In this document: positions 51,405 through 64,000 of the stretch, in pieces
Layout of the letters: each line of letters begins with the position of its first letter
Position numbering within the stretch: position 1 is the stretch's first letter
Source of the DNA: Candidatus Laterigemmans baculatus
Lineage (GTDB): Bacteria; Planctomycetota; Planctomycetia; Pirellulales; Pirellulaceae
Assembly (NCBI RefSeq): GCF_010367455.1
Contig: NZ_WRPR01000078.1
Span: 1 to 64,000, forward strand
Length of the DNA: 64,000 bases
Direction of reading: 5' to 3'
Notes under the pieces: generated by a model
The model's database searches: none
What the model was told of the DNA's origin: nothing
What the model saw: the letters and a program-made list of their open reading frames with translations, nothing else
Made by a program: the position numbers and the translations under genes

Positions 51405-52907
51405 CTACGCTTGCTCTTTGCCTTCGGGTTTGCCGCGGCGGCGTTTGATCTCCTCAAACACCTGTCCAGGCTGCAGTTCCTCGTCGCTGTGCATCACCAG
51501 ATCGTAGAGGTCGTCTGGTAGGACCCGCACCACGGTCATCAGGCCCTTGACCCCCATGTGCCACATCGGCCGCATCCCGCGGGTCTCGCGGCGATTGTTG
51601 ATCTTTTGCATCTCGGCCGGACTCATCTCCTGGCCTTGCATCATTTGCGGGTAGCCGGGGACTTCGAATCCGGGATCGGTATGCGGGAATTTGACCTGCG
51701 GACGCGAGTCGAGGTTGCCTCGGTATTGGGTCACATCGACGTCTTCGCGAATCCGTGGTCCCACCTGTTTAACCATGTGGTTCATCATGTGGTGAACCAT
51801 GTGGCAGTGCATGATCCAGTCGCCCGGATTGAAGGCGATGAACTCAAAGTCCGTTGCTTGCGACACAGCGATCAATTCGGTGTTGCGTGGAATCCACGCG
51901 GATTTTGGAATCCGTGCTCCCTCATGTCCCGTTTTCCAAAACGTATGCCCGTGAATATGGATGGGGTGATGCTGCATCGGGCTGAAGTCGAGAATCCGAA
52001 TCCGCACCCGCTCGCCGTGCCGGCAAACCATCGGGGTGGTGTAGGGACCACTGCGGCCGTTGATCGTGTGCCAACTCCATTCCATGGCCATCGAATTGGG
52101 GATCGTCTGATTTGGGTCGATCCGAAAGTTCTGAAAAAGGAGCAAGAAGTCGCGGTCGACCGGTGGGTCATAAGCCACCGCGGGATGAATGATGAAAAAT
52201 CCCACCATCCCGAAAGCTTCCTGCATCGGCATGTGCGAGTGATAGAAGAACGTGCCCGCTTGGTGCAGGTCGTATTCATAGACATACGTTTCCCCGGGCG
52301 CGATGGGCTTTTGCGTCAGCCCCGGGACACCATCCTCCTCGACCGGTAATTCTAGACCGTGCCAGTGAATCGTGGTCGGCTCGGGCAGCTGATTGTGAAC
52401 CACGAACCGCACGCGGTCCCCCTGCTGAACCTCGATCGTCGGCCCTGGCATGCTGCCGTTGTAGCCAAAAAAGTCCATCCAGTTGCCAGGCAACAGCTCG
52501 CGACGGACATGTTCGCAGTAGATGTGAAACTCTTTAGCGCCGTCGACCATCTTCCACGGCAGTTTGCCCAGGTCGGGCGCTTCCACGCGGACCGGAGGAA
52601 GGCCGGAAGCACGCAGCCCCGGCACCAGCTTGCCCATATAGGTGTCGCTCTCGGGCGGTCCCCCATAGCTGGGGCGATACCGCGAGTACTCTTGGAACTT
52701 CTCGGGCAGCCGTTCGCTCGACTCTGCGGCTGTCGCCTCCGCACCGCTCGGCCGCGCGTCGCCGGCCCTTGCATCTGCAGCGGGGGGAGTCTCGGCGGCG
52801 GGCGGATCCTGGCCGGGTGCTGCGGCGGATCCTCCCCCGACGATACCCGCAGCGGCCGCCACGGCTCCGCGACGCAAAAACTCCCGTCGGCCGTTGTCGT
52901 CGGTCAT
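51405..52907 (-). CDS. Multicopper oxidase (CopA/laccase-like), Tat-exported
   Basis: ATG 52907, 500 residues. Tat signal RREFLRRGAVAAAAG. Three cupredoxin domains with the four copper-binding motifs: TIHWHGLE, FFYHSHM, HPIHIHGH and WIMHCHMVHHMMNHM (His-Cys-His; the usual axial Met is at HHM). A Met/His-rich end (MMQGQEMSPAEMQK) fits cuprous oxidation. Oxidises Cu(I) or phenols with O2 outside the cytoplasm. It is on the same strand as the TolC/His-rich genes, separated by a repeat block. Ends KGKEQA-type basic tail. Confidence 0.9.
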   Translation of the reverse strand: MTDDNGRREFLRRGAVAAAAGIVGGGSAAAPGQDPPAAETPPAADARAGDARPSGAEATAAESSERLPEKFQEYSRYRPSYGGPPESDTYMGKLVPGLRASGLPPVRVEAPDLGKLPWKMVDGAKEFHIYCEHVRRELLPGNWMDFFGYNGSMPGPTIEVQQGDRVRFVVHNQLPEPTTIHWHGLELPVEEDGVPGLTQKPIAPGETYVYEYDLHQAGTFFYHSHMPMQEAFGMVGFFIIHPAVAYDPPVDRDFLLLFQNFRIDPNQTIPNSMAMEWSWHTINGRSGPYTTPMVCRHGERVRIRILDFSPMQHHPIHIHGHTFWKTGHEGARIPKSAWIPRNTELIAVSQATDFEFIAFNPGDWIMHCHMVHHMMNHMVKQVGPRIREDVDVTQYRGNLDSRPQVKFPHTDPGFEVPGYPQMMQGQEMSPAEMQKINNRRETRGMRPMWHMGVKGLMTVVRVLPDDLYDLVMHSDEELQPGQVFEEIKRRRGKPEGKEQA

Positions 52908-53003
52908 CGAAACCTCTCTCAGGTGGGTGACATCTAGCGGGGACTATTCATCCGCCGCCACCGGGCTGGGCTCTGTCAGAAAATCCGGCGAAATCGACCT
53001 CTT

Positions 53004-53179
53004 GAGCCGTAGGCGCTAGCCTCGGGCCCCCGCGAGCCCCCGGCATTTCCGCTGCAGAACCCGCGGCTAGCGCCGTCGGCTCAGGGTTTTCTGACAGAGC
53101 CGTAGGCGCTAGCCTCGGGCCCCCGCGAGCCCCCGGCATTTCCGCTGCAGAACCCGCGGCTAGCGCCGTCGGCTCAGGG
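53004..53179. repeat. Two identical 83-bp palindromic intergenic repeats
   Basis: Units 53004-53086 and 53097-53179 look identical. Each begins GAGCCGTAGGCGCTAGCCTC and ends GCTAGCGCCGTCGGCTCAGG, which are near complements, so each can form a cruciform. CTCTGTCAGAAAA at 52971-52983 and TTTTCTGACAGAG at 53087-53099 form an outer inverted pair around the first unit. A related shorter unit (ATCTAGCGCCCAGCGGCG) is at 53211-53228. Confidence 0.9.
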
Positions 53180-53410
53180 GGACAGAGCCGAGCGTGTGGC
53201 GGTTGATCCGATCTAGCGCCCAGCGGCGGATGCAATCTCTGGACTCAATCGCTACCGGCCATTCTAGACCGAGGTCCATCCCGCTTCCGTGCGGCATCGA
53301 CTTGGCCGGCTAGCGGTAGCGACAATGGCGCAACGCTTCAACGCAGCGAGGGGGGATAGCTCGAGATCGAACTTCCCCCCTCGGCGGGTTGCGGTGCCGC
53401 TCGAGCCGCC

Positions 53411-53860
53411 TCAGCGTGGCTGCGGGACGGCGTCGATATGCCCCGGCGGCGTCGGGTCGGGCGGATCCGACAGCCCCCCATGCAGCAGAAAGCCCATGAT
53501 GCTGACCTCGCTCTCCCGCCAAATAATCAAGGTGCGGATATATTCGACACGGTGCGTGAAGTAGTCTTGCTCAGCTTGCAGGACATCGGTCCAGGGAGCT
53601 CGATCTTCCTCATAGCTTTGCAGCCGCAGGTCGTACGCCAACTTGGCTTCGGGCAAAATCACCTGCTCATAGTTGCGGACCTGCTGAACCGCGGTGAGAT
53701 AGTTGCGATACTGCTGCGCGAGCTGCTGCCGCAGAACCAACTCGGTCCGCCGCAACTCTCCGACTTGCCGCGAGTAATCCGCCTCGGCTTGGCGAATGGT
53801 CCCTTGGTTCCAGTCGAAAACCGGCACCTCCATCATCACTCCCGCTGCGGCGGCTGGCCG
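53411..53860 (-). pseudogene. C-terminal part of a TolC-family outer membrane efflux protein
   Basis: The frame holds the second helical-hairpin repeat and end of TolC/CusC proteins: VMMEVPVFDWNQGTIRQAEA, LRQQLAQQYRNYLTAVQQV, ILPEAKLAYDLRLQSYEED, DVLQAEQDYFTHRVEYIRTL and a late GFLLHGG. About 280 N-terminal residues (first beta strands and helical hairpin) are missing. TolC-like codons begin near 53860, just after an in-frame stop. It overlaps the lipoprotein gene (TGATG), suggesting that one longer gene lost its middle. Confidence 0.75.
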
Positions 53861-54303
53861 TCAAACGTCATCGCTGAGGGCTCCCAGGCGACGCTCGGCG
53901 CCGGCGGGATCGCGGGAGCTGGCAAATAGACGTTCCCGCTCTCAACTGGGGCTTGCGGTTCGGCCGACGAGTAAGGTCGCTCGGGTGTGATCGCCGGCTC
54001 GTCGAGCAACTGCCGCCGGGGCGGGCTGGGAGCCGCCTCGTCCTGAAAGGTGACCGTCGCGACCGCTGTGGTGGACGCGGATGCAGGGGCTGACTCGGGA
54101 GTTGGGGCTGGCTCGGGAGTTGGGGCTGGCTCGGGAGTTGGGGCGGCCGAACTTCTCTGCTTTGCAATCGCCTCGGCCAGGGGATGGGGGCCCGCCGGCA
54201 CCGCCGAGGGTTCGGTGAGCCCCGTTTGCCGAGTTGAGGGCGACGCACAGCCTGCAATCGCCAGACTGACCAATGCACTGGTGTAACAGAACAGACGCTT
54301 CAT
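53836..54303 (-). CDS. Lipoprotein N-terminus, probably the 5' part of the deleted TolC gene
   Basis: ATG 54303, 155 residues. Signal peptide with lipobox LAIAGC (Cys18), then a Pro/Ala/Thr-rich stretch containing four short repeats (APTPEP) and a final segment (PAIPPAPSVAWEPSAMTF). No folded domain is apparent. Many CusC/CzcC proteins are lipoproteins with such a start, so this is probably the N-terminus of the TolC protein whose C-terminal part lies at 53411. Start overlaps the stop of the His-rich gene (TGATG). Confidence 0.65.
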   Translation of the reverse strand: MKRLFCYTSALVSLAIAGCASPSTRQTGLTEPSAVPAGPHPLAEAIAKQRSSAAPTPEPAPTPEPAPTPESAPASASTTAVATVTFQDEAAPSPPRRQLLDEPAITPERPYSSAEPQAPVESGNVYLPAPAIPPAPSVAWEPSAMTFDGQPPQRE

Positions 54304-54770
54304 CAGCGGGCTCCTTCGACCGGAGCGGAGCTGTGATGGTGGCTATGGTGAGCGGCGTGGTGGCGAGAGCCTGCTGCCTTGGGGTTGTGGATCCCGATCC
54401 ACCACAGCGACACCGCCGCTCCTGGACGTCCGCAGCGGCCTCCCGGGCAGTCATCGAAACCATTGGCCGGATCGTCATCCCACGGGTAGCTGCCGTAGTA
54501 GAGGAAGCCGCGGTGGGTAGCGAAGCAGGGAGCCGCCGGGGCAGGGCCTGGACACAGCAGGCAATCGCGCGGCGGAAGCATCTTCTGCGGCGGTGGCGGC
54601 AGGTGCTCCGCCGGAAGCGCGGCAACCGAATCGGTCTCATCGGCCGAAGCGCCCGTTGGCACTCCGCCGAGCGCGGCGCCGACGAGGATTGCTCCGAAAA
54701 GTCGCGTCGCTTTGAAACGGCTACGCAAAGTAACAATGCGATACACCACGTCCGAACTCCTTTTCGCCAT
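54303..54770 (-). CDS. Small exported His-rich protein, probable metal binder
   Basis: ATG 54770 (MAKRSSDVVYRIVTLRSRFK), 155 residues. Signal peptide (LFGAILVGAALGGVPTGASA), Pro/Cys-rich middle (PPPRDCLLCPGPAPAAPCF), aromatic segment (FLYYGSYPWDDD) and a His-rich tail (RHHAAHHSHHHSS) suited to binding Cu, Zn or Ni. I do not know the family. First gene of the operon leading into the TolC remnants. Confidence 0.65.
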   Translation of the reverse strand: MAKRSSDVVYRIVTLRSRFKATRLFGAILVGAALGGVPTGASADETDSVAALPAEHLPPPPQKMLPPRDCLLCPGPAPAAPCFATHRGFLYYGSYPWDDDPANGFDDCPGGRCGRPGAAVSLWWIGIHNPKAAGSRHHAAHHSHHHSSAPVEGAR

Positions 54771-55315
54771 GCGGGATCGATCCAGTCTTATGTTCCGCCT
54801 GCTTGGGTGCGGGAGTGATTGGGTGCGGACCGATTGCATGCACCGGCCCCGCTCTTTTGGCGGGCCTGGGATCTAAAGGAGTCTTTCGGGCCGCCTCGCT
54901 CGGCGCCCCGCACCGTTTCCGGTCAAGACACTCAACCCGATTCATTGGAATCACTGCAGACCGTACAATCGATACAGCATGCCGCGAGGCTTCTCGTTCA
55001 TTCAGCTGACGATTGCAACCTCCCGCTCTCGGGCACCTTGCGCGAGACGAAAATCCATGGCGTAAGAAGCAACAGCCAGAATCGAAATCAGCGAAGTTGG
55101 CGCGGAAGTTGATGCACCCCTGAGGGAAGTGTACCGAGGCTACCGCATCGACGGACCGTACGCGGCCGGGCGTGCCGAGAGCACAACGGAACACCGGCTA
55201 CGGATTCCGGTCAGCGCAGGCACAATCACTCGTAGAGGAGTGCAGTCCGGGGAGCATGAACTGCGAATGTTGTTTTTCGAGACCTGTCTGAAGCATTTCT
55301 AGGGAGGATGCAGCG
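54771..55315. other. Intergenic region, 545 bases
   Basis: No supported gene or RNA. It separates the metal operon (minus) from the TUDOR gene (plus), so promoters for both should lie here. Confidence 0.4.
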
Positions 55316-55534
55316 ATGAATCCATTCCATGAGGGGCAAGCGGTGAAATGGAAATGGGGTACTGGCTACGGTCATGGCAAAGTCAAAACCGCATTCACGC
55401 ACAAGGTGACGCGAAAGATTGGCGGTGAGGAGATTACCCGTCACGGCTCCGAGGATAATCCGGCGTACTACGTCGAGGTCGAGGACAGTAACAACGTTCT
55501 TAAACTTCACAGCGAATTACAGAAAGACTCCTGA
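55316..55534 (+). CDS. Hypervirulence-associated TUDOR-domain protein (DUF2945)
   Basis: ATG 55316 with AGGGAGGATG ribosome site, 72 residues, full domain length. FHEGQAVKWKWGTGYGHGKV, TRKIGGEEITRHGSEDNPAY, YVEVEDSNNVLKLHSELQ. Small SH3-like barrel seen in many bacteria; role in stress or nucleic-acid binding is unproven. One base separates its stop from the ATG of the DUF3140 frame, so they form an operon. Confidence 0.87.
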   Translation: MNPFHEGQAVKWKWGTGYGHGKVKTAFTHKVTRKIGGEEITRHGSEDNPAYYVEVEDSNNVLKLHSELQKDS

Positions 55535-55535
55535 T

Positions 55536-55871
55536 ATGAATTCATCCGAACAACAAAAGGTCTAACAGGAATTCAACGACCTGACGAATATGGCTCCGAA
55601 GGAACTGGAAAATTGGCTCCAGACCGAGCAGTCCCAGGCCGTAGGTGACTCAGACTCCGGTGAGTCGACCGGTCATCAGTCGGGTCGACGCATTGTGAAG
55701 ATCAAGCGTACAAAGAAAGCCGATTTGACCGATTCCGACTACGAGCACATGAACAAAGTCACGGGTTACATTAAACGGCACACCGCCCAGCGGCCCAACG
55801 GGGACGTCACTGAGACGCCTTGGCGTTACTCGCTGATGAACTGGGGACACGACCCACTCCACGGCGAATAA
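55536..55871 (+). pseudogene. DUF3140 protein with an early in-frame stop
   Basis: ATG 55536 reads MNSSEQQKV then TAA (55563-55565), then continues in the same frame as QEFNDLTNMAPKELENWL. The remainder (NWLQTEQSQAVGDSDSGEST, HMNKVTGYIKRHTAQRPNGD, WRYSLMNWGHDP) matches the whole DUF3140 family, which normally includes the QEFNDL part. A single base change (for example TAC to TAA) would explain it. An internal ATG 55590 could still make a 93-residue protein lacking the start; no good ribosome site precedes it. Confidence 0.75.
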
Positions 55872-55988
55872 CCCCCGCCCCGTCATCGTCGCCTTTCGCT
55901 CCCGTGTTAGCGGTCACTCACGAACTCTACCATGTTTAGGCATGCCGAGGCGGCCAGGGCTTGTCGACGCCAGTTTTCTTGATAGAAA

Positions 55989-56028
<40 letters not shown>

Positions 56029-56359
56029 GCGAAGAAGCCCACTGCTAATTTCAATGCCTCTGAGCATTCTCTATAAAGAAACCAGCGTCGCACGAAACCC
56101 CGAGGTAGCCACAGTGGGTCACCAAAAGCAAGCCCAGAGTGTGCGCACACCGGCCAAAACCTTGCAAGTATTAGCTCGCGTACATCATAGGTTAGGAGTT
56201 ATAGGGTTTCGTGGCGTCGGTGGAGGCGACCCTCGCTGCATCACAGCCAGAGACCGACTCATCGCTGGCTAAACCCTACGTGGAAGTCGACGCCCTAGCC
56301 GAACGGCTGGAGGCATGGCAGCAGGCACCACTCTGCGTCCGAAATTGCCCGCTGCTTGC
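56029..56359. other. Gap after the broken tRNA
   Basis: No supported gene. Somewhat lower GC than neighbours. It is the first sequence of the segment joined to the tRNA half, so it would carry one attachment end if this is an integrated element. Confidence 0.4.
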
Positions 56360-56914
56360 TCACCGCGGCGGACGGAGCACCGACCAATCGAGCCGCCGCT
56401 GGCTGTGGGGGCGCTGGGGGCGAATCTGGCTCAGCAGGTCGCGGACTGAGAATCCGGCGTTCGGGCCCGAGAAGATCCACAGCATCGGGTGGCCATCGCC
56501 CGCCGCGAGCGTCACGGACGGCTCTTCGCCGAAGTCGACAACGGCCGGCGGAAAGCGATCGTGCTCGGTGCTCAAGATCACCTGGTCGACGAGCGACAAC
56601 GCGATCTCACTGTGCTTCGGCCGTCTCTTCACGACGCGCTGCCAGAGGCCGTTCGCCGTGACCGGAACGATCGGCCGCCGGATCCGCGGTTCACCGAACC
56701 GCGTCAGGAAATCGATGGCAGTCGACACAACCTCCCGCCAGTCCGAGTCCCACGCGTCGTCGCTATCGGCGAACTCCGCGAAACCAGCCTCCGCAAAGCA
56801 ATCATCCGCATCGACCGGCGACGGCCACACGGCAAGCACCTGCACCGCCGAGGGCAGCGTTATGGTACCGGCACCGGTCAGAACCGCGTCCCAGTGGAAC
56901 GTCTGGATCTTCAA
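56360..56914 (-). CDS. Unknown protein (184 residues)
   Basis: TTG 56914. MKIQTFHWDAVLTGAGTITL, then an acidic segment (DADDCFAEAGFAEFADSDDA) and DSDWREVVSTAIDFLTRFGE. Soluble, mixed alpha/beta. I recall similar small planctomycete proteins but no function. The end (QRPHSQRRLDWSVLRPPR) looks less protein-like and may be read-through into rearranged DNA. Confidence 0.55.
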   Translation of the reverse strand: MKIQTFHWDAVLTGAGTITLPSAVQVLAVWPSPVDADDCFAEAGFAEFADSDDAWDSDWREVVSTAIDFLTRFGEPRIRRPIVPVTANGLWQRVVKRRPKHSEIALSLVDQVILSTEHDRFPPAVVDFGEEPSVTLAAGDGHPMLWIFSGPNAGFSVRDLLSQIRPQRPHSQRRLDWSVLRPPR

Positions 56915-57129
56915 TTGTTTTGGCTCCCCTGGTACATCTCTGCCTCACGGTCTGGGTGAAGTTCAGATTGACGCGCGGGTACCAGTAATCGCCATTCGGG
57001 GGGGGCGCACCGCTCAGCAGTGTCTCTGGCATCCCATCGCCTGCTCGGCAGCTTCCTATGAGCGCGCGGAGCACAGACAACGATTGCGAGACCGCTCGCT
57101 TCCCTTCTACACGGTTTTGCCTCTGTGCA

Positions 57130-57302
57130 CCCGAACGGTATCTCACTCGCAAACGCCAACGTTAGCGAAACCCGAATCCGCCGCCCCCGTGGGCCTGCCG
57201 GTGGGCCCATCAGCAGCCATCGAGGCCGAACTGCTAAACCTGTTCCGGACCCTCGACCCAGCCGCCCAAGCCGACCTGCTAGCCGTGGGGAGGGCCCCCT
57301 GA
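57130..57302 (+). pseudogene. Possible C-terminal gene remnant
   Basis: The last about 30 codons of a long plus frame read AIEAELLNLFRTLDPAAQAD then LLAVGRAP stop, which has the look of a real helical protein end, while everything before it in that frame is antisense to the 56360-56914 gene. Family unknown. Confidence 0.3.
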
Positions 57303-57507
57303 AGGGCTCGATGTGGTGGCCCGTTGTCGCTTTTGATCTCGGCCTCGCCGCGCAGCTATGATAGAGGAACGAAAGTACACACGGTACCGAAGCGTCGCCA
57401 GTTGATTGCGAACCGGTGTTGCAGGCAGCCGCGGGATCCACTACCGACGCCGTCAGAACTGCACCGAGCGCGACGTCGGTGCCGGTCCCCAGAACGAGAG
57501 GTTCGCC

Positions 57508-58266
57508 ATGGATGATCTGGAGAATGTCGAGCTCGATTTTAGGATCGAAGGAGACAACGTGCATCCAGACACTGTGCCACTCCGTGATCTGCTTCGCGCG
57601 GTGCAGTTGTACGAACGTGCCGTTCGAATCGCCTCGAATGCCTGGGATAAAGGCGTGCACGATGAGCTCTATCTTGTACAAATAGAGGACAAGAGCGCGT
57701 CGCTCGTGCTTCGGACTTCCCCATCGCGTGCTTCCGTCGTCGAGCGGCTTCATCACCTAATTGCTGTTGAGGATCTCGCCAAGTTACCGGAACAGTGCAC
57801 CAAAGCCATTGAAGAACTCGCAGGGCTGATGGCGAAGCGAGCTTGGAATCTTTCGGTGGGCGCTCGGGGGCTTGGCGTGTATTTTCCAGCGATTCCGCGC
57901 AACTTCAAACACGGGGTTCAGGACGTCTATAGGGAGGAAACGACTCTGTATGCCAATTTGCGGTCGGTCGACGTCGACAATCTAGCCGCCACGATTCATG
58001 TTTCCGGCGGCAAGGTTAAAGCTCGTGTTTTGAATGAAACCGTTGCGAAGAAGCTCGGCGCAAAGCTAAAGACGACCATTGAACTGAGCGGGCGAGCCGA
58101 GTGGGATACAAGAAACAGAATGCTGGTGGGATTCCTGATCCGGGAGATTGGTGAGTATGAGCCCGCGGATCCCTTGACGGCATTTGCAGAACTCGCTGCA
58201 GCCTCAGGAGGACGCTGGGACACGGTGGATCCGGACCGCTACGCGAAAGCGATGAGGCAAGAGTGA
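57508..58266 (+). CDS. Unknown protein coupled to a PIN nuclease
   Basis: ATG 57508 (MDDLENVELDFRIEGDNVHP) with GAGAGG upstream, 252 residues. An N-terminal acidic strand-helix region (TVPLRDLLRAVQLYERAVRI) and beta-rich centre (LYLVQIEDKSASLVLRTSPS, NLAATIHVSGGKVKARVLNE), then LIREIGEYEPADPLTAFAEL. No signal peptide, no known motif; not an obvious AbrB, RHH or HTH antitoxin. Its stop overlaps the GTG of the PIN gene by four bases. The size and coupling suggest a partner protein of the nuclease: antitoxin, sensor or RNA-binding adaptor (inference). Confidence 0.7.
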   Translation: MDDLENVELDFRIEGDNVHPDTVPLRDLLRAVQLYERAVRIASNAWDKGVHDELYLVQIEDKSASLVLRTSPSRASVVERLHHLIAVEDLAKLPEQCTKAIEELAGLMAKRAWNLSVGARGLGVYFPAIPRNFKHGVQDVYREETTLYANLRSVDVDNLAATIHVSGGKVKARVLNETVAKKLGAKLKTTIELSGRAEWDTRNRMLVGFLIREIGEYEPADPLTAFAELAAASGGRWDTVDPDRYAKAMRQE

Positions 58267-58784
58267 AAATCTGCCTCGACACGAATGTGCTGATCTGGGG
58301 GGTCCGTGGCGCTGCGTCGCCTGGTCAGGACGAAATGGTCCAATATGCAAGAAATGCCCTAATGCGGATGAGTGTGGAGCGAGCCGAAATGGCGATCCCC
58401 ACGCCCGTTATGTCCGAGTATTTAGTCGATTCCGACACGGGCAGGCGGGAGAATGAAGTCAAGACGCTTAGGAAGAACTTTCAAATATTGCCCTTCGACG
58501 CTTTGGCGGCCAGCGAAGCTGCACTGCTCGTCAAATCCTCTAGGACGAACCGTGAGGAGCATTTCGGGGGGAGAGTCGCGATTAAGTTCGATGCGATGAT
58601 TCTTGCGTGGGCGATTGTTCATAAGTGCCACTGCATATTGACCTACAACACCCGCGAGATGTCTACGATAGCGCGTGGGAGAATTGCGGTTCAAGACCTC
58701 GTTCAGTTCGTCGATGCGCCGCAGTCGTCGATGCTGCCGCCATCACCGCGGCAAACCGATCTGGACGATTTTTTTAAGCCGTGA
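58263..58784 (+). CDS. PIN-domain ribonuclease-like protein
   Basis: GTG 58263, 173 residues. PIN fold: MKICLDTNVLIWGVRG (Asp6), MSEYLVD (Glu52), AIKFDAMILAWAIVH (Asp110) and HCILTYNTREM, where Asn129 stands in the usual fourth acid position. PIN toxins of VapC type cut tRNA or rRNA; here length and the C-terminal tail (PPSPRQTDLDDFFKP) exceed most VapC. The gene is translated with the unknown protein upstream and ends 11 bases from the convergent hsdR. Confidence 0.82.
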   Translation: MKICLDTNVLIWGVRGAASPGQDEMVQYARNALMRMSVERAEMAIPTPVMSEYLVDSDTGRRENEVKTLRKNFQILPFDALAASEAALLVKSSRTNREEHFGGRVAIKFDAMILAWAIVHKCHCILTYNTREMSTIARGRIAVQDLVQFVDAPQSSMLPPSPRQTDLDDFFKP

Positions 58785-58795
58785 TCCTCCGTTTC

Positions 58796-61700
58796 TTACA
58801 CCCATCCCTCGCAGAGCACCGCGGCCTGCTCTAGGACCTCTTTGGTGGCTTCGGCTTGGAGGTCAGGGGGGTAGCCGTGTTTGCGGAGGATTCGGCGGAC
58901 TAGGACTCGGATTCGGGCTCTTGCCGATTCGCGTTCGGTCCAGTCGATGGTGACGCTGCGGCGGACGGTTTGGACGAGCTCGGTGGCGATCACTTTCAGC
59001 TCGTCGCTCCCCATCGCTTCCATCGCGCTTTCGTTCTGGGCCAGCGCGTCATAGAAGCAGATTTCGTCGTCGCTCAGCCCCAGCTCTTCGCCTCGCCGCT
59101 GGGCCGCCTGCAGGCTTTTGGCCATCTTGATCAGGTCGTCGATTAGCTCGACCGTCGAAATCGAGCGGTTGTGGTAGGCGGTCAGGACCTGCTTGAGCAT
59201 CTCGGAGAACGACCGCGACTGCGTGACATTTCGCTTCGCCTGGAATTTCACTTCGTCCGAGAGCAGCTTCTTGAGCAGCTCGGCGGCGACGTTCTTGTAC
59301 GGGAGCGAACGAACTTCCTCGAGGAACTCGTCTGACAGGATCGAAACATCGGGCCGCTCCATCCCGGCCGCGGCAAAAACGTCGATCACTTCGTCGCTGG
59401 CGGTGACGACGGCTTTGGAGACCAGTTGGCGAACGGCGTGGTCGAGCTCCGATTCCGATTTGCCGCTGGGCGAATACTTGCGGAACGCGGTCCGCACGAT
59501 CTGGAAGAAGGCGACGTCCTCGCGAATCTCGTGGGCGTATTCGGAGGTCGGGCAGAGGGCGAAGGCGCGGGACAGGTTGTCGACGTGGGCGATCCACCGC
59601 TGACGCCCCTCCTCCTGCTCGAGCAGAAAGTCCTGGGCGGCCACCATCAGCGAGAGCCGATCCCCTGCTCTGCCGCTGGTCCACCGCGACCAGTCGAAAC
59701 CGTGGAGCATGTCGCAGCACAGCTCGTAGTGCTTTTGCAGGGCCTCGACCGCTTCGCGGGTGTCGACCGTCGTCTGTCCCTTGCCGCCGCTCTCGGTGTA
59801 GGTCCGCAGCGCCTTTTGCAACGCGTCGCCGATCCCCAAGTAGTCGACGACCAGCCCGCCCGGTTTTTCGCGGAACACGCGGTTGACCCGCGCGATCGCC
59901 TGCATCAGCCCGTGCCCCTGCATCGGTTTGTCGACGTACATCGTGTGCAGCGAGGGAGCGTCGAAACCGGTCAGCCACATATCGCGGACGATCACCAGCC
60001 GGAACGGGCTGCTGGGGTCTTTGAACTGCGTGGCCAGCGCCCGGCGTCGCTGCTTGGTGCGGATATGCTTCTGCCACTCCGCCCCGTCGGAGGCCGAGCC
60101 GGTCATGATCACCTTCACGAAGCCCTGGTCGTCGTCGATGTCCCGCTCGCTCGCCGCCGATTTGGTGAAGCGATACGTGCGGGCCTCGGGCGATTCGGCC
60201 ACCTGCGCCAGCGCCCCGTCTTGGGCGAGCTTCCCATCCGGCTGCGGCTTACCGGCCCACTCGGGCCGCAGGCGGATGATTTCATCGTACAGCTCGACGC
60301 AGATCCGGCGGCTCATGCAGACGATCATCCCTTTGCCGTCCAGCGACTCGAGCCGCTTTTCAAAATGCTCGACCACGTCCCGGGCCAGCACCCGGATGCG
60401 GTCATCATCGCCGACCATCGACTCGAGCGCCGCCCATCGGGACTTCAGCTTCTCCCGGGTCTCCGATTCCTCCTCCTCGGTGATCGCTTCAAAGTCGTCG
60501 TCGATGCCGCTGACCGCTTTGTCCTCCAGCGCCAGCTTGATCACCCGGCTCTCGTAGTAGATCGGCACGGTCGCCTTGTCTTCGACCGCCCGCTGGATGT
60601 CATAGACGCTGATGTAGTCGCCAAAGACCGCGCGGGTGTTTTTGTCGCTCTGCTCGATCGGCGTCCCGGTGAACCCGATGAAGGAAGCGTTGGGGAGTGC
60701 GTCGCGGATGTTGCGAGCGAACCCGTAGGAGATTTTTTCGGGGTCCTTCTTATCGCGGCGAGCCCGAAACCCGTACTGGCTGCGGTGGGCCTCGTCGGCG
60801 ATCACGACGACGTTGCTCCGCTCGGTCAGCGTAGGGAATTTTCCCGACGTCTCGGCGAACTTGTGGACGGTGGTGAAGACGACGCCCCCGGAGGCGACTT
60901 GCAGCAGCTCGCGGAGGTGCTCGATCGAGTCGGCCTGCACCGGCTTCTGCCGGAGGATTTCATAGCACCGCTGGAATTGGCCAAACAGCTGGTCGTCCAG
61001 GTCGTTGCGGTCGGTCAGCACGACCAGCGTCGGGTTGTTCATCCGCGGATCGGCGACGACCAATCCCGCGTAGAAGAGCATCGTAAAACTCTTGCCGCTC
61101 CCCTGCGTGTGCCAGACGACCCCGCCACGGTGATCGCCGCCGGGGCGGCTGGCCGCGACGGTCGATTCGATGGCGGCCTGGGCCGCGTGGAACTGGTGGT
61201 AGCCGGCCAGGATCTTGTGGACGCGGTCGCTGTCGGTGTCGTCCTCGAACAGCACAAAATTCTGCACCAGCGGCAGCAGACGCTCCGGGGCTAGCGCGCC
61301 GCGGATCAGGATTTCCAGCTCCGTCTTGCCTTTGACCGGCCGTTCCTCCTCAACGGTCCGCCACGGCTTGAACCACTCACGGCCGGCCGTCAGCGAGCCA
61401 ATTTGAGCCTTGTGGCCGTCACTGACGACCAGCAGCTCGTTGTAGTGGAACAGCGAGGGGATCTGCGCCTCGTAGGTCCCCAGTTGCTTGAAGGCGTCGT
61501 CGATCGTCGCCTCCTGGTCGGCCGCGCTCTTGAGCTCGAGGACCGCGATCGGCAGCCCGTTGACGAAAACGACGACGTCGGGCCGCCGCGTGTGGCCGCT
61601 CTCCTGGACCGTGAACTGGTTGACGGCCAGGAAGTCGTTCGCCGCGGGCGAGTCGCAGTTCAACAACCGCACCCGGTCGCCGGCGATCGAGCCGTCGTCG

Positions 61701-62011
61701 CGGCGGTACTCAACCTCGACCCCGTCGCGGAGCATCGCGTGGAAGCGGCGGTTAGCGGCGATCAGCGTCGGCGCGTCGATTCGCAAAACGTTCCGCAGCG
61801 CCTCGTCGCGGGCCTCGGCCGGCACGTCGGGGTTCAGCCGGTCAATCGCTTCCCGCAGCCGCCCAGCGAGCACCACGTCGCCAAAGGAGTCCCGTTCGGG
61901 TGAGTCACCATCAGGGGCGAGCTCAGGGCCAGAGGCGGTCGAATATCCAAGCTCGGCCAGCCAATCGAGGGCGGCCTGTTCGACGGTGGTTTCGTTGAAG
62001 GCGAGGGACAT
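58796..62011 (-). CDS. hsdR: Type I restriction endonuclease R subunit (EcoR124-like HsdR)
   Basis: ATG 62011 ([18 protein letters not shown]), 1071 residues, full length. Functions as DNA translocase and nuclease with HsdM and HsdS. Seen: HsdR_N nuclease domain with [20 protein letters not shown] (PD-(D/E)xK core around 150-160), Walker [12 protein letters not shown] (near 310), [13 protein letters not shown] (DEAH), [27 protein letters not shown] and [10 protein letters not shown] (motifs V/VI), then the helical C-terminal domain. All catalytic motifs are intact. Minus strand, downstream of HIRAN and hsdS; hsdM is presumably beyond 64000. Confidence 0.95.
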
Positions 62012-62297
62012 GCGGTCGCGAGGCACAGGTGCGGAGTCGGAAGAGCCCCGATGATAGTCAAACGCTTGCCTCGCGTGGGGGGGCAGCTGGCTGAATAGCG
62101 TCGGTGTGCAAGGATGGGCGGAGCGGCCAGCCACAGAGAGCACGGAGGGCACGGAGAGAAGGAGGAGGGCTGCGATCGGGTGAGCCAGCCATCGCGCGCA
62201 CCAGCCACAGAGTGGCGACAGAGAATAGCCCACGGCGTGAGCCGTGGGTTGGCGGCCCCGCCACGCGCGCACCAGCCCCAGCGGGGCGACACAGGGA
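62012..62297. repeat. Intergenic repeats between HIRAN and hsdR genes
   Basis: A 30-base unit with core GCGCGCACCAGCC..GGCGAC occurs at 62193-62222 and 62265-62294; between them CCCACGGCGTGAGCCGTGGG (62230-62249) is a near-perfect hairpin. 62127-62160 has AGCACGGAGGGCACGGAGAG. No gene seen. Confidence 0.7.
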
Positions 62298-63044
62298 TCA
62301 CCCCGCCGGCACGCCCGCGACGATCGGCTCGAATTCTTCGCCGCGGCAGGGCTGGAAGTCGGCCGGCCAGCAGGCTCGCAGCCGGCAGAGCAGCCGTTGC
62401 TGCATCGGCGCGTCTTGGTTGACCCGCTGGACGAACAGCCGCACCTCGTTCGTCGGGCACTCCTCGAGGAGATGCCTGACGTCGGCGGCGAGATAGCGGG
62501 GGACGTAACCCAGCGGGGTGCCGTGGGCAAAGATCGCCACCGCGTTCGGGTCCTTCGGGTTCAGCGGCTGAGGACGGAGCTGGAGCTCGTCCCCCGGGTG
62601 CAACTGCTCGAGCACCGGGCCGGCGTTGGGCAGGTGGTAGCGGACGCCGTGGGCGAAAAAGTGATTGATGAAGCAGCCGCGGGAGTCCGGCACCGGGCAG
62701 GGGAATAATTCCACCGCGTCGGTTTGCTTGATACCCTGCGTCCGCCCCAGCACCACCAGCGGCTCCGGAGACTCGTCGGCGCTCAGCCCGCTCCACTCCA
62801 GGTAGGCCTTGAATTCAGGCCGGGACGGCGGCAGCAGGCGGTTTTTGAACAGCGGGAACAGCTCGTCCGATTCGTAGACCTGCTCGAGCTCCGGCATCCC
62901 GTCAAAGGGCTGGAAACCGGGCAGCGTCTGGGCTCCCCGAGTGTACCGGAAGCGGTAGACGCTGCCATCGAAGTCCAAGCGGCCCACGGGCCCCCACACG
63001 GGCGGCGGTTCTTTCATGTGCCAGGCGACGTACAGGAAGTTCAT
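62298..63044 (-). CDS. HIRAN-domain protein of the type I restriction locus
   Basis: ATG 63044 ([17 protein letters not shown]), 248 residues. N-terminal part: phage/HIRAN-associated [20 protein letters not shown] and [20 protein letters not shown], reminiscent of HipA-N/HIRAN pairings. C-terminal HIRAN at about 135-225: [35 protein letters not shown] and [15 protein letters not shown] domains recognise stalled forks or 3' ends of damaged DNA. Its place between hsdS and hsdR suggests it is part of the restriction operon, perhaps controlling or guiding it (inference). Confidence 0.8.
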
Positions 63045-63555
63045 GGGGCTCAGTCTAACGATGCGGCATAGCGCCGGTGCATCCGCCGGTGTGACGGTTT
63101 CGCCTCTCGCTATGGCGGCTGACCCGGTGTGGAGTTCGGCGAGCCGGAGTTTAAATGAGCTTAAATAAGTAAGCCGTGGTGGACCAACGGTTTGCGGCAA
63201 TCCCATAGCGTGCAACGCCAGTCAAATTAAATGCCGGCGTCTCTAGTGTTAGCCCACTGTCGCTCCCGCCGATACTAGCCGCGTTGTCCGTGGACGCCCT
63301 CGCGTGTTGGAAGAGTAGCTTGAGTTGAATCAGCGACTTACCGATACTGATCCAGAGCTCGTCTGCCATGTGTAGAAGGAGTAGCGAAGCCGTCCTTCGG
63401 GGCGGCTTCAGCTGTTTTAGGGGTTGGTTACCATCCCTGCTGCTCCTTCCCGAGTTGCTCCACGTCGTAGGCGAGATCGCGGTCGACCTCGATCACGGGG
63501 TACATCGGCAACGGGCCTGCGTCACCGCCCAGGCCCGCGTCGTGCTGCGGTCCGG
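63045..63555. other. 510-base gap between HIRAN and hsdS
   Basis: A minus frame at 63151-63369 (72 codons, MADELWISIGKSLIQLKLLF) may be a small gene but lacks support. On the minus strand near 63429-63509 a short frame MYPVIEVDRDLAYDVEQLGK ends EQQGW stop and looks like the end of a removed gene. Confidence 0.4.
63386..63409. terminator. UUCG-type hairpin
   Basis: GAAGCCGTCC-TTCG-GGGCGGCTTC, ten pairs (one G-T) with a stable tetraloop, followed on the plus strand by AGCTGTTTTAG. Possible terminator or mRNA-stabilising hairpin in the restriction operon. Confidence 0.5.
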
Positions 63556-63999
63556 TCACACCGCCGCCTCCACCACCCGCTCGGCATCGAACACACGCAA
63601 TTCGCCCGAGAGGAGCTTGGGGAGGAGCGTGTCGCGGAGGGCCGCGAGCGTGCGGGATTCATCTTCATTTTGGTGAACTCTATCCAACGTCGGCGAGAAG
63701 ACGCTGGCCGCTCTCGCCTGAATCTCACATGGCGGGATGAGTACACGAATCTTCCGGAGCTCGCTTTGGCGGATTCCGACGACCGTTGTACCGGTTGCTT
63801 TTGATGCTAGCTCAACTTGTGCGTCATCGGATGCGATCCACATGTATAAGTAAGCAGGATCACAGATTGCGGGGGCCGCTCGTATGCCGAATAGTCGCTG
63901 GCTGAGGCAAAGTCTTGTGTTCCGCGAGAGGAAATATAATTCTCCCAGCGGCGCCTCCGAAGTCATTAGAATGTCGCCCGTTTGAAGTTTGTCCTTCAT
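63556..63999 (-). CDS. hsdS: Type I restriction specificity subunit HsdS, C-terminal part (runs off the window)
   Basis: 147 codons are visible and the frame continues past the right edge. TGDILMTSEAPLGELYFLS, the SQRLFGIRA region and YLYMWIASDDAQVELASKAT belong to a target-recognition domain; then the conserved helical spacer and end: IRKIRVLIPPCEIQARAASV-like segment, NEDESRTLAALRDTLLPKLL, SGELRV. HsdS chooses the DNA sequence bound by the complex. Two TRDs are expected; only the second is seen. Confidence 0.9.
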   Translation of the reverse strand: MKDKLQTGDILMTSEAPLGELYFLSRNTRLCLSQRLFGIRAAPAICDPAYLYMWIASDDAQVELASKATGTTVVGIRQSELRKIRVLIPPCEIQARAASVFSPTLDRVHQNEDESRTLAALRDTLLPKLLSGELRVFDAERVVEAAV

Positions 64000-64000
64000 C

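Follow-up and report, generated by a model that had tools for sequence, protein, structure and literature searches.

A PIN nuclease gene coupled to a large upstream partner: a putative toxin-antitoxin-like pair in Candidatus Laterigemmans baculatus and its phylum

The window, by which we mean the whole 64,000-nucleotide stretch of Candidatus Laterigemmans baculatus DNA analysed here, carries two adjacent genes on the plus strand. The upstream gene (57508..58266) is an open frame for a protein of 252 aa without family match, a putative large antitoxin that is hereafter called the partner, and the downstream gene (58263..58784) encodes a PIN nuclease of 173 aa with a match to PF01850. The GTG start of the PIN gene sits inside the end of the partner gene, the stop of the first and the start of the second sharing the bases GTGA (58263..58266, plus strand), and the reading frames, the starts and the four-base overlap described in an earlier note on this DNA are all borne out by the sequence. 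When the window pair is compared with its relatives (16 pairs in all), eight junctions show a 4-base overlap, two a 1-base overlap, five a 2-base gap, and one a 15-base gap. With no overlap longer than 4 bases and no gap longer than 15 bases among the 16, the pair has the two-gene organization of VapBC and type II toxin-antitoxin modules, in which the antitoxin gene is located upstream and coupled to that of the toxin. As for six loci recovered later, reading of their sequences gave an in-frame NTGA junction with the PIN gene in four, and a PIN start within about 30 bases in the other two.

The earlier note had described a PIN fold with Asp6, Glu52, Asp110, and Asn129. The assignment to the fold is upheld by the match to PF01850 (E 9.4e-10, 39.6 bits for a cut-off of 23.6), and D6, E52, and D110 are invariant in 16/16 PINs of an alignment that includes the one from the window. 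Variation is seen at the fourth position, which is D in 11/16, N in 3/16 (the window among these), and E in 2/16. The downstream gene therefore encodes what is expected of the toxin of a VapBC pair, namely a PIN domain with conserved acidic residues. Most PINs of the family also carry a C-terminal tail beyond the last strand; by eye, no such tail is apparent in the weakly matching PINs from these genomes.

The partner is of a different nature. At E<=1, the window protein gave zero matches in Pfam, NCBIfam, PADLOC, and PHROGs, and the known housekeeping family that, according to the earlier note, would have spoken against a new pair was not found in these four libraries. Against the sequences of the PDB, the best E-value was 0.07 with the single protein (designed helical proteins) and 0.47 with a 9-row profile. 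Nine members of the partner family scanned against Pfam yielded only two stray matches (E 0.05 and 0.21), both to unrelated families and neither to an antitoxin family, and the VapB, RHH, AbrB, Phd, and HTH models were matched by 0/9 at E<=1. In PADLOC-DB 2.0.0 (library from 2023), neither the partner nor the PIN matches a system protein at E<=1. The length of the partner ranges from 246 to 276 aa in 16 members; at 252 aa and Pfam-negative at E<=1, the window protein is not the small VapB antitoxin with a recognised DNA-binding domain that is characteristic of VapBC, and is, as had been noticed before, far larger than usual VapB proteins and devoid of a recognisable DNA-binding motif.

Some residues of the partner are nevertheless strongly conserved. 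P20, L56, G195, W199, and F209 are constant in 16/16 members, S63 and W237 are kept in 15/16, and D238 and D241 in 12/16; by their look, these residues would play a structural or interactive role rather than a catalytic one. Three of them belong to a W-D-x-V-D segment (58216..58230, plus strand) close to the C-terminus, a candidate neutralising element. Within the final 15–20 residues, the window partner reads WDxVDP and most members have a similar sequence, L062 being an exception. Antitoxin tails are known to enter the cleft of their toxin, and by analogy the WDxVD segment is proposed to occupy that of the PIN.

Two AlphaFold models were obtained, each from a 4-row alignment, one for a relative and one for the window partner, and both are weak. 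The mean pLDDT is 58 for the relative, with blocks of 55–87 within the first 150 residues, and 52 for the window partner. In both models, the N-terminal domain (residues 1–127; 57508..57888, plus strand) follows, at low to middling confidence, the order beta-alpha-beta-beta-alpha-alpha-beta, which is the ferredoxin-like order. The C-terminal domain (residues 143–215; 57934..58152, plus strand), whose conserved residues are G195, A197, W199, and F209, was modelled in the window partner with strands at 147–155, 158–165, and 168–173 and a helix at 177–194, all at pLDDT <50; together with the sequence that follows, which can be read as two further strands, these elements suggest an OB-like order. 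In a VIA structure search, the best Z was 5.9 for both models, the telling level for this tool being 8. The relative's model retrieved a mitoribosomal assembly protein (Z 5.5–5.9), ACT domains (4.4–4.8), and RRMs (up to 3.9), and the window partner model retrieved Boca (5.9), efflux-pump domains, designed ferredoxin folds, PriA, and ACT domains (5.0–5.5), and Cas6 (4.8). None of these top rows, all below the telling level, was accepted as a relative, and Foldseek with the relative's model returned nothing at E<=0.001. If the OB-like and ferredoxin-like orders are correct, they make the binding of a nucleic acid or a ligand by the partner conceivable only.

The association of the two genes was examined from both sides. 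When 60 related genomes were queried with the window partner, it was detected in 4 further genomes (5/60 with its own), and profile searches detected it in 5/392 genomes for the phylum, 11/396 for the order, and 12/397 for the class, the own genome being counted in each; these four samples overlap. In the pattern scan, whose two strict patterns cover one subgroup only, loci L023–L026 correspond by eye to the same proteins as L017, L016, L018, and L008, and were counted once. Pooling of the searches gave 21 distinct non-self partner loci from 20 genomes, all from the same phylum as the window bacterium. In 21/21 of these loci, a related PIN gene is found directly downstream on the same strand, and one of these PINs is frame-broken: at L058:918-1729, the break lies alongside an intact partner and may reflect either decay or an assembly error. 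The search for the pair as a conserved two-gene unit in other genomes, which the earlier note had proposed as a check, thus came out in its favour, and the lack of co-occurrence that it had named as a counter-argument was not seen.

Conversely, a profile built from 16 PINs gave, over the same 60 genomes, 7 matches in 6 genomes that scored 161 bits or more, with the next match at 36 bits. All seven strong matches are linked to a partner gene, two of them in one genome, and a partner was found beside 0/9 of the weaker PIN matches (E<=0.01) in these genomes; because of this distribution, the PIN clade and the partner can be said to be present together or absent together in the 60-genome sample. 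One partner match near a weaker PIN (12 bits over 30 residues) was rejected as being at chance level. The distance matrices of partner and PIN are correlated with an r of 0.869 (reached by 0/20000 permutations), and of 0.648 (9/20000 permutations) when four members of a tight subgroup are removed, a correlation that shared species history can inflate.

The distribution of the partner is patchy, with about 1–8% of genomes per search, and the family was found in one phylum only, the genomes searched being from that phylum and the plasmids and phages being negative. No partner was found in viral contigs, two partner queries gave zero matches in phages, and the window partner and three relatives gave zero matches in plasmids. 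A match in a viral contig (L002; 46 residues, 41%) is located inside an unrelated ORF without an adjoining PIN and was attributed to chance, and matches of a fourth relative (L006) to 11 plasmid records (E 0.06) were rejected as being weak and under a transposase gene. Base composition was compared for the 13/16 loci that have at least three comparator ORFs, the 3/16 with one comparator being dropped. The mean GC3 of the pair is under the mean of its neighbours in 12/13 loci, L040 being the exception, and under every comparator in 9/13.

In the window, the pair is located in a stretch bounded by tRNA sequences. The broken tRNA that the earlier note had placed near the pair is a 41-bp exact copy of the 5' part of tRNA-Arg(tct) (55988..56028, plus strand); it repeats contig positions 73015-73055, at the start of an intact tRNA-Arg(tct) found at about contig 73016-73090, and forms the left end of an island of ~17 kb. 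Rfam run over 52000-64000 left this fragment unlisted even at E<=5. The ~17 kb between the repeats encode the pair, HsdR, HsdS, HsdM, and a TPR protein. A repeat facing an intact tRNA has the geometry that is left when an element integrates into a tRNA gene, and such an origin is suggested here; no integrase was recognised between the repeats, and the PF00589 matches on the contig (E<=0.01) are all near 21 kb. The tRNA-Arg(tct) seen in the window also occurs ~7 kb from another family member, at L037:2047-2119, where it overlaps the end of an ORF that reads, by eye, as integrase-like.

The type I restriction-modification gene hsdR (58799..62011, minus strand; PF04313, PF18766, PF11867; start by reading) is convergent with the pair, and is accompanied by HsdS (contig 63559-64902) and HsdM (contig 64895-66520). 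The restriction locus reported as intact beside the pair does have its HsdR, HsdS, and HsdM domains, with HsdM and about two thirds of HsdS lying outside the window. Two further features are found on the minus strand of this locus: a HIRAN-domain ORF (62301-63089) between hsdS and hsdR, and an Acido-Lenti-1 RNA (RF01687; 62203-62248; 51.8 bits for a cut-off of 37) between the start of hsdR and the HIRAN ORF.

For the family, a scan was made of 120 predicted ORFs (minimum length 100 aa) located up to 6 kb from 16 copies of the pair and called with a simple picker that includes some spurious frames. The matches are bulk raw counts in which single ORFs are not resolved and which have no background, so that neither enrichment nor absence can be read from them: with PADLOC at E<=1e-10, the first 25 of 244 models include mad2 (4), PD-T4-6 (up to 3), mad6 (3), type IIG (up to 2), DrmMI (up to 2), PDC-M71A (2), and, with 1 each, type I R, type I S, type II and type III methylases, and others, and with Pfam, the first 25 of 126 families include Pkinase (3), ResIII (3), Resolvase (2), IS1 transposase (2), Phage_integrase (2), MmeI methylase (2), and many ordinary ones (1). 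As for the "defence region" of the earlier note, restriction genes do adjoin the window copy, and the bulk scan, in which restriction, kinase-like, and mobile-element families are matched along with many others, speaks neither for nor against a defence setting of the family. One family member has, 4.3 kb away at L034:3666-5329, a gene for a Peptidase_M78 protein (394 aa) followed by a DUF4411 PIN gene.

The C-terminal tail of the window PIN contains the sequence QTDLDDFF (residues 164–171; 58752..58775, plus strand), noticed post hoc, which we take to resemble the PIP box of the flap endonuclease FEN1; the tails of relatives include QKELF, QGDLF, and QKEMF. The pattern Qxx[LMIFV][FLIVMYW] occurs in 6/22 PIN tails, for a shuffle mean of 0.88 (reached by 0/2000 shuffles), and, in the last 40 residues, in 6/22 PINs versus 12/103 neighbour proteins (P 0.09). 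Qxx[LM]F is found in 2/22 PINs versus 0/103 neighbour proteins (P 0.03), the PIP pattern in 1/22 PINs versus 0/103 control proteins (P 0.18), and the looser [QEN]x(1,2)[LM][FY], which was picked after the tails had been seen, in 10/22 PINs versus 3/103. That the tail would tether the PIN to the replication clamp, making the module a nuclease that is targeted to replication and restrained by a sensor-inhibitor of two domains, is very unlikely in our estimation, and the tail may equally dock the partner. To our knowledge, a clamp-tethered layout is not known for PIN toxin-antitoxin pairs, and a literature search for VapC with a PIP box gave a match that, by its listing, concerns secreted effectors of a plant pathogen.

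On the strength of the sequence data, it is fairly probable that the pair is a toxin-antitoxin-like module whose partner inhibits the PIN nuclease. The two-domain product of the upstream gene would bind the nuclease and inhibit it, and coupled translation would ensure that the inhibitor is made first and that the two products are kept matched. The PIN protein would be toxic by cutting RNA, the partner would neutralise it, the conserved WDxVD segment at the C-terminus of the partner being perhaps the means, and the loss or titration of the partner would free the nuclease. The two domains that replace a recognisable DNA-binding domain may hold a sensor for a ligand or a nucleic acid. A toxin-antitoxin module predicts the reciprocal pairing, the coupling with the partner gene in first place, the preserved nuclease residues, the patchy copies that are often of odd composition, and the broken PIN beside an intact partner in L058. 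Arguing against this reading, the size of the partner well exceeds that of usual antitoxins, no antitoxin family is matched by it, and the family was found in one phylum, with no relative in plasmids and phages. Of the new toxin-antitoxin or abortive-infection pair that the earlier note had inferred, the toxin-antitoxin part is kept as the best reading, given the co-occurrence in 21/21 loci and a partner without family match in the libraries searched. That the pair acts by abortive infection, or that the large partner senses infection or binds RNA, is conjectural, the models that bear on the role of the partner being of low confidence.

Except for L058, the same features also fit a two-subunit nuclease with a directing partner. 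In that case the nuclease complex would be an active one, either a defence effector or an RNA-processing one, and the partner would be its targeting or sensor subunit, binding a nucleic acid or a phage product and directing or switching on the PIN, with both proteins needed. We give this alternative perhaps a one-in-several chance: the large size of the partner, its two domains with modelled OB-like and ferredoxin-like orders, the lack of a recognised DNA-binding antitoxin domain, and the type I restriction neighbour in the window speak for it, and strict co-occurrence fits it equally well, but the folds are of low confidence and a defence setting is not established for the family. Moreover, antitoxin-toxin pairs usually have this layout, with the partner gene first and a close overlap. 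An ordinary VapBC, with a VapB that has diverged strongly or carries an additional fused domain, would account for the PIN toxin, the gene order, the close junction, and the signs of mobility, but appears unlikely in view of the 0/9 partners matching the VapB, RHH, AbrB, Phd, or HTH models, the size of the partner in all 16 members, and the distance that separates this PIN clade from the other PINs of the same genomes (161 versus 36 bits). Finally, PIN domains also have RNA-processing roles in cells, and the pair could be a housekeeping one of this kind; its patchy distribution, with so few genomes positive in each search, disfavours this, as do a GC3 that is mostly low compared with the neighbours and the island location in the window, and we regard it as most improbable.

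Few toxins are as common as PIN toxins, and most of the antitoxins known for them are small DNA-binding proteins. The toxin-antitoxin-like reading places the pair beside VapBC, with which it shares a PIN nuclease with conserved acids, a partner gene upstream that overlaps or abuts, and a patchy distribution with signs of mobility. It differs in that the partner has ~250 aa, two domains (in weak models), and no match to VapB, RHH, AbrB, Phd, or HTH, and in the C-terminal tail of most of its PINs. Pairs of PIN toxins with COG2856 proteins (ImmA/IrrE, Xre-fused) are described in the accessible part of PMC2701414. They resemble our pair in the large partner adjoining a PIN gene, and such a pair is even found near a family member (L034), where both the M78 and the DUF4411 models are matched; in contrast, neither M78 nor HTH is matched by the window partner, and the window PIN matches PF01850, not DUF4411. 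The same part of that source lists DUF433, COG2886, COG2880, COG1753, and MerR-like proteins as predicted PIN-associated antitoxins, which are HTH-, AbrB-, RHH-, or MerR-like and small where a size is given (PMC2701414). They were predicted by the same guilt-by-association logic, whereas the window partner has no HTH-, AbrB-, RHH-, or MerR-like match in Pfam. In the NetFlax network, as far as the accessible text goes, PIN toxins are likewise paired with varied antitoxins of several kinds, some tested for neutralisation, but none of the partners, including RHH, SpnP, PanA, and similar ones, is described there as resembling the window partner (PMC10440598).

No account of such a partner was found among the papers listed by the literature searches or in the accessible parts of PMC2701414, PMC6504116, and PMC10440598, and the entries of Table 4 of PMC6504116 include no PIN pair. 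It could be among the 24,377 sequences that TASmania pools as unnamed neighbours of toxins. What is new is therefore a partner without a model in four libraries, PIN toxins and large partners as such being already known. That 0/9 scanned partners have a Pfam model also points to a gap in curation. If the toxin-antitoxin-like reading is true, the family would represent a new architecture of antitoxin, or of nuclease control, that went undetected by the libraries searched, and would provide a testable handle on the triggers of such modules.
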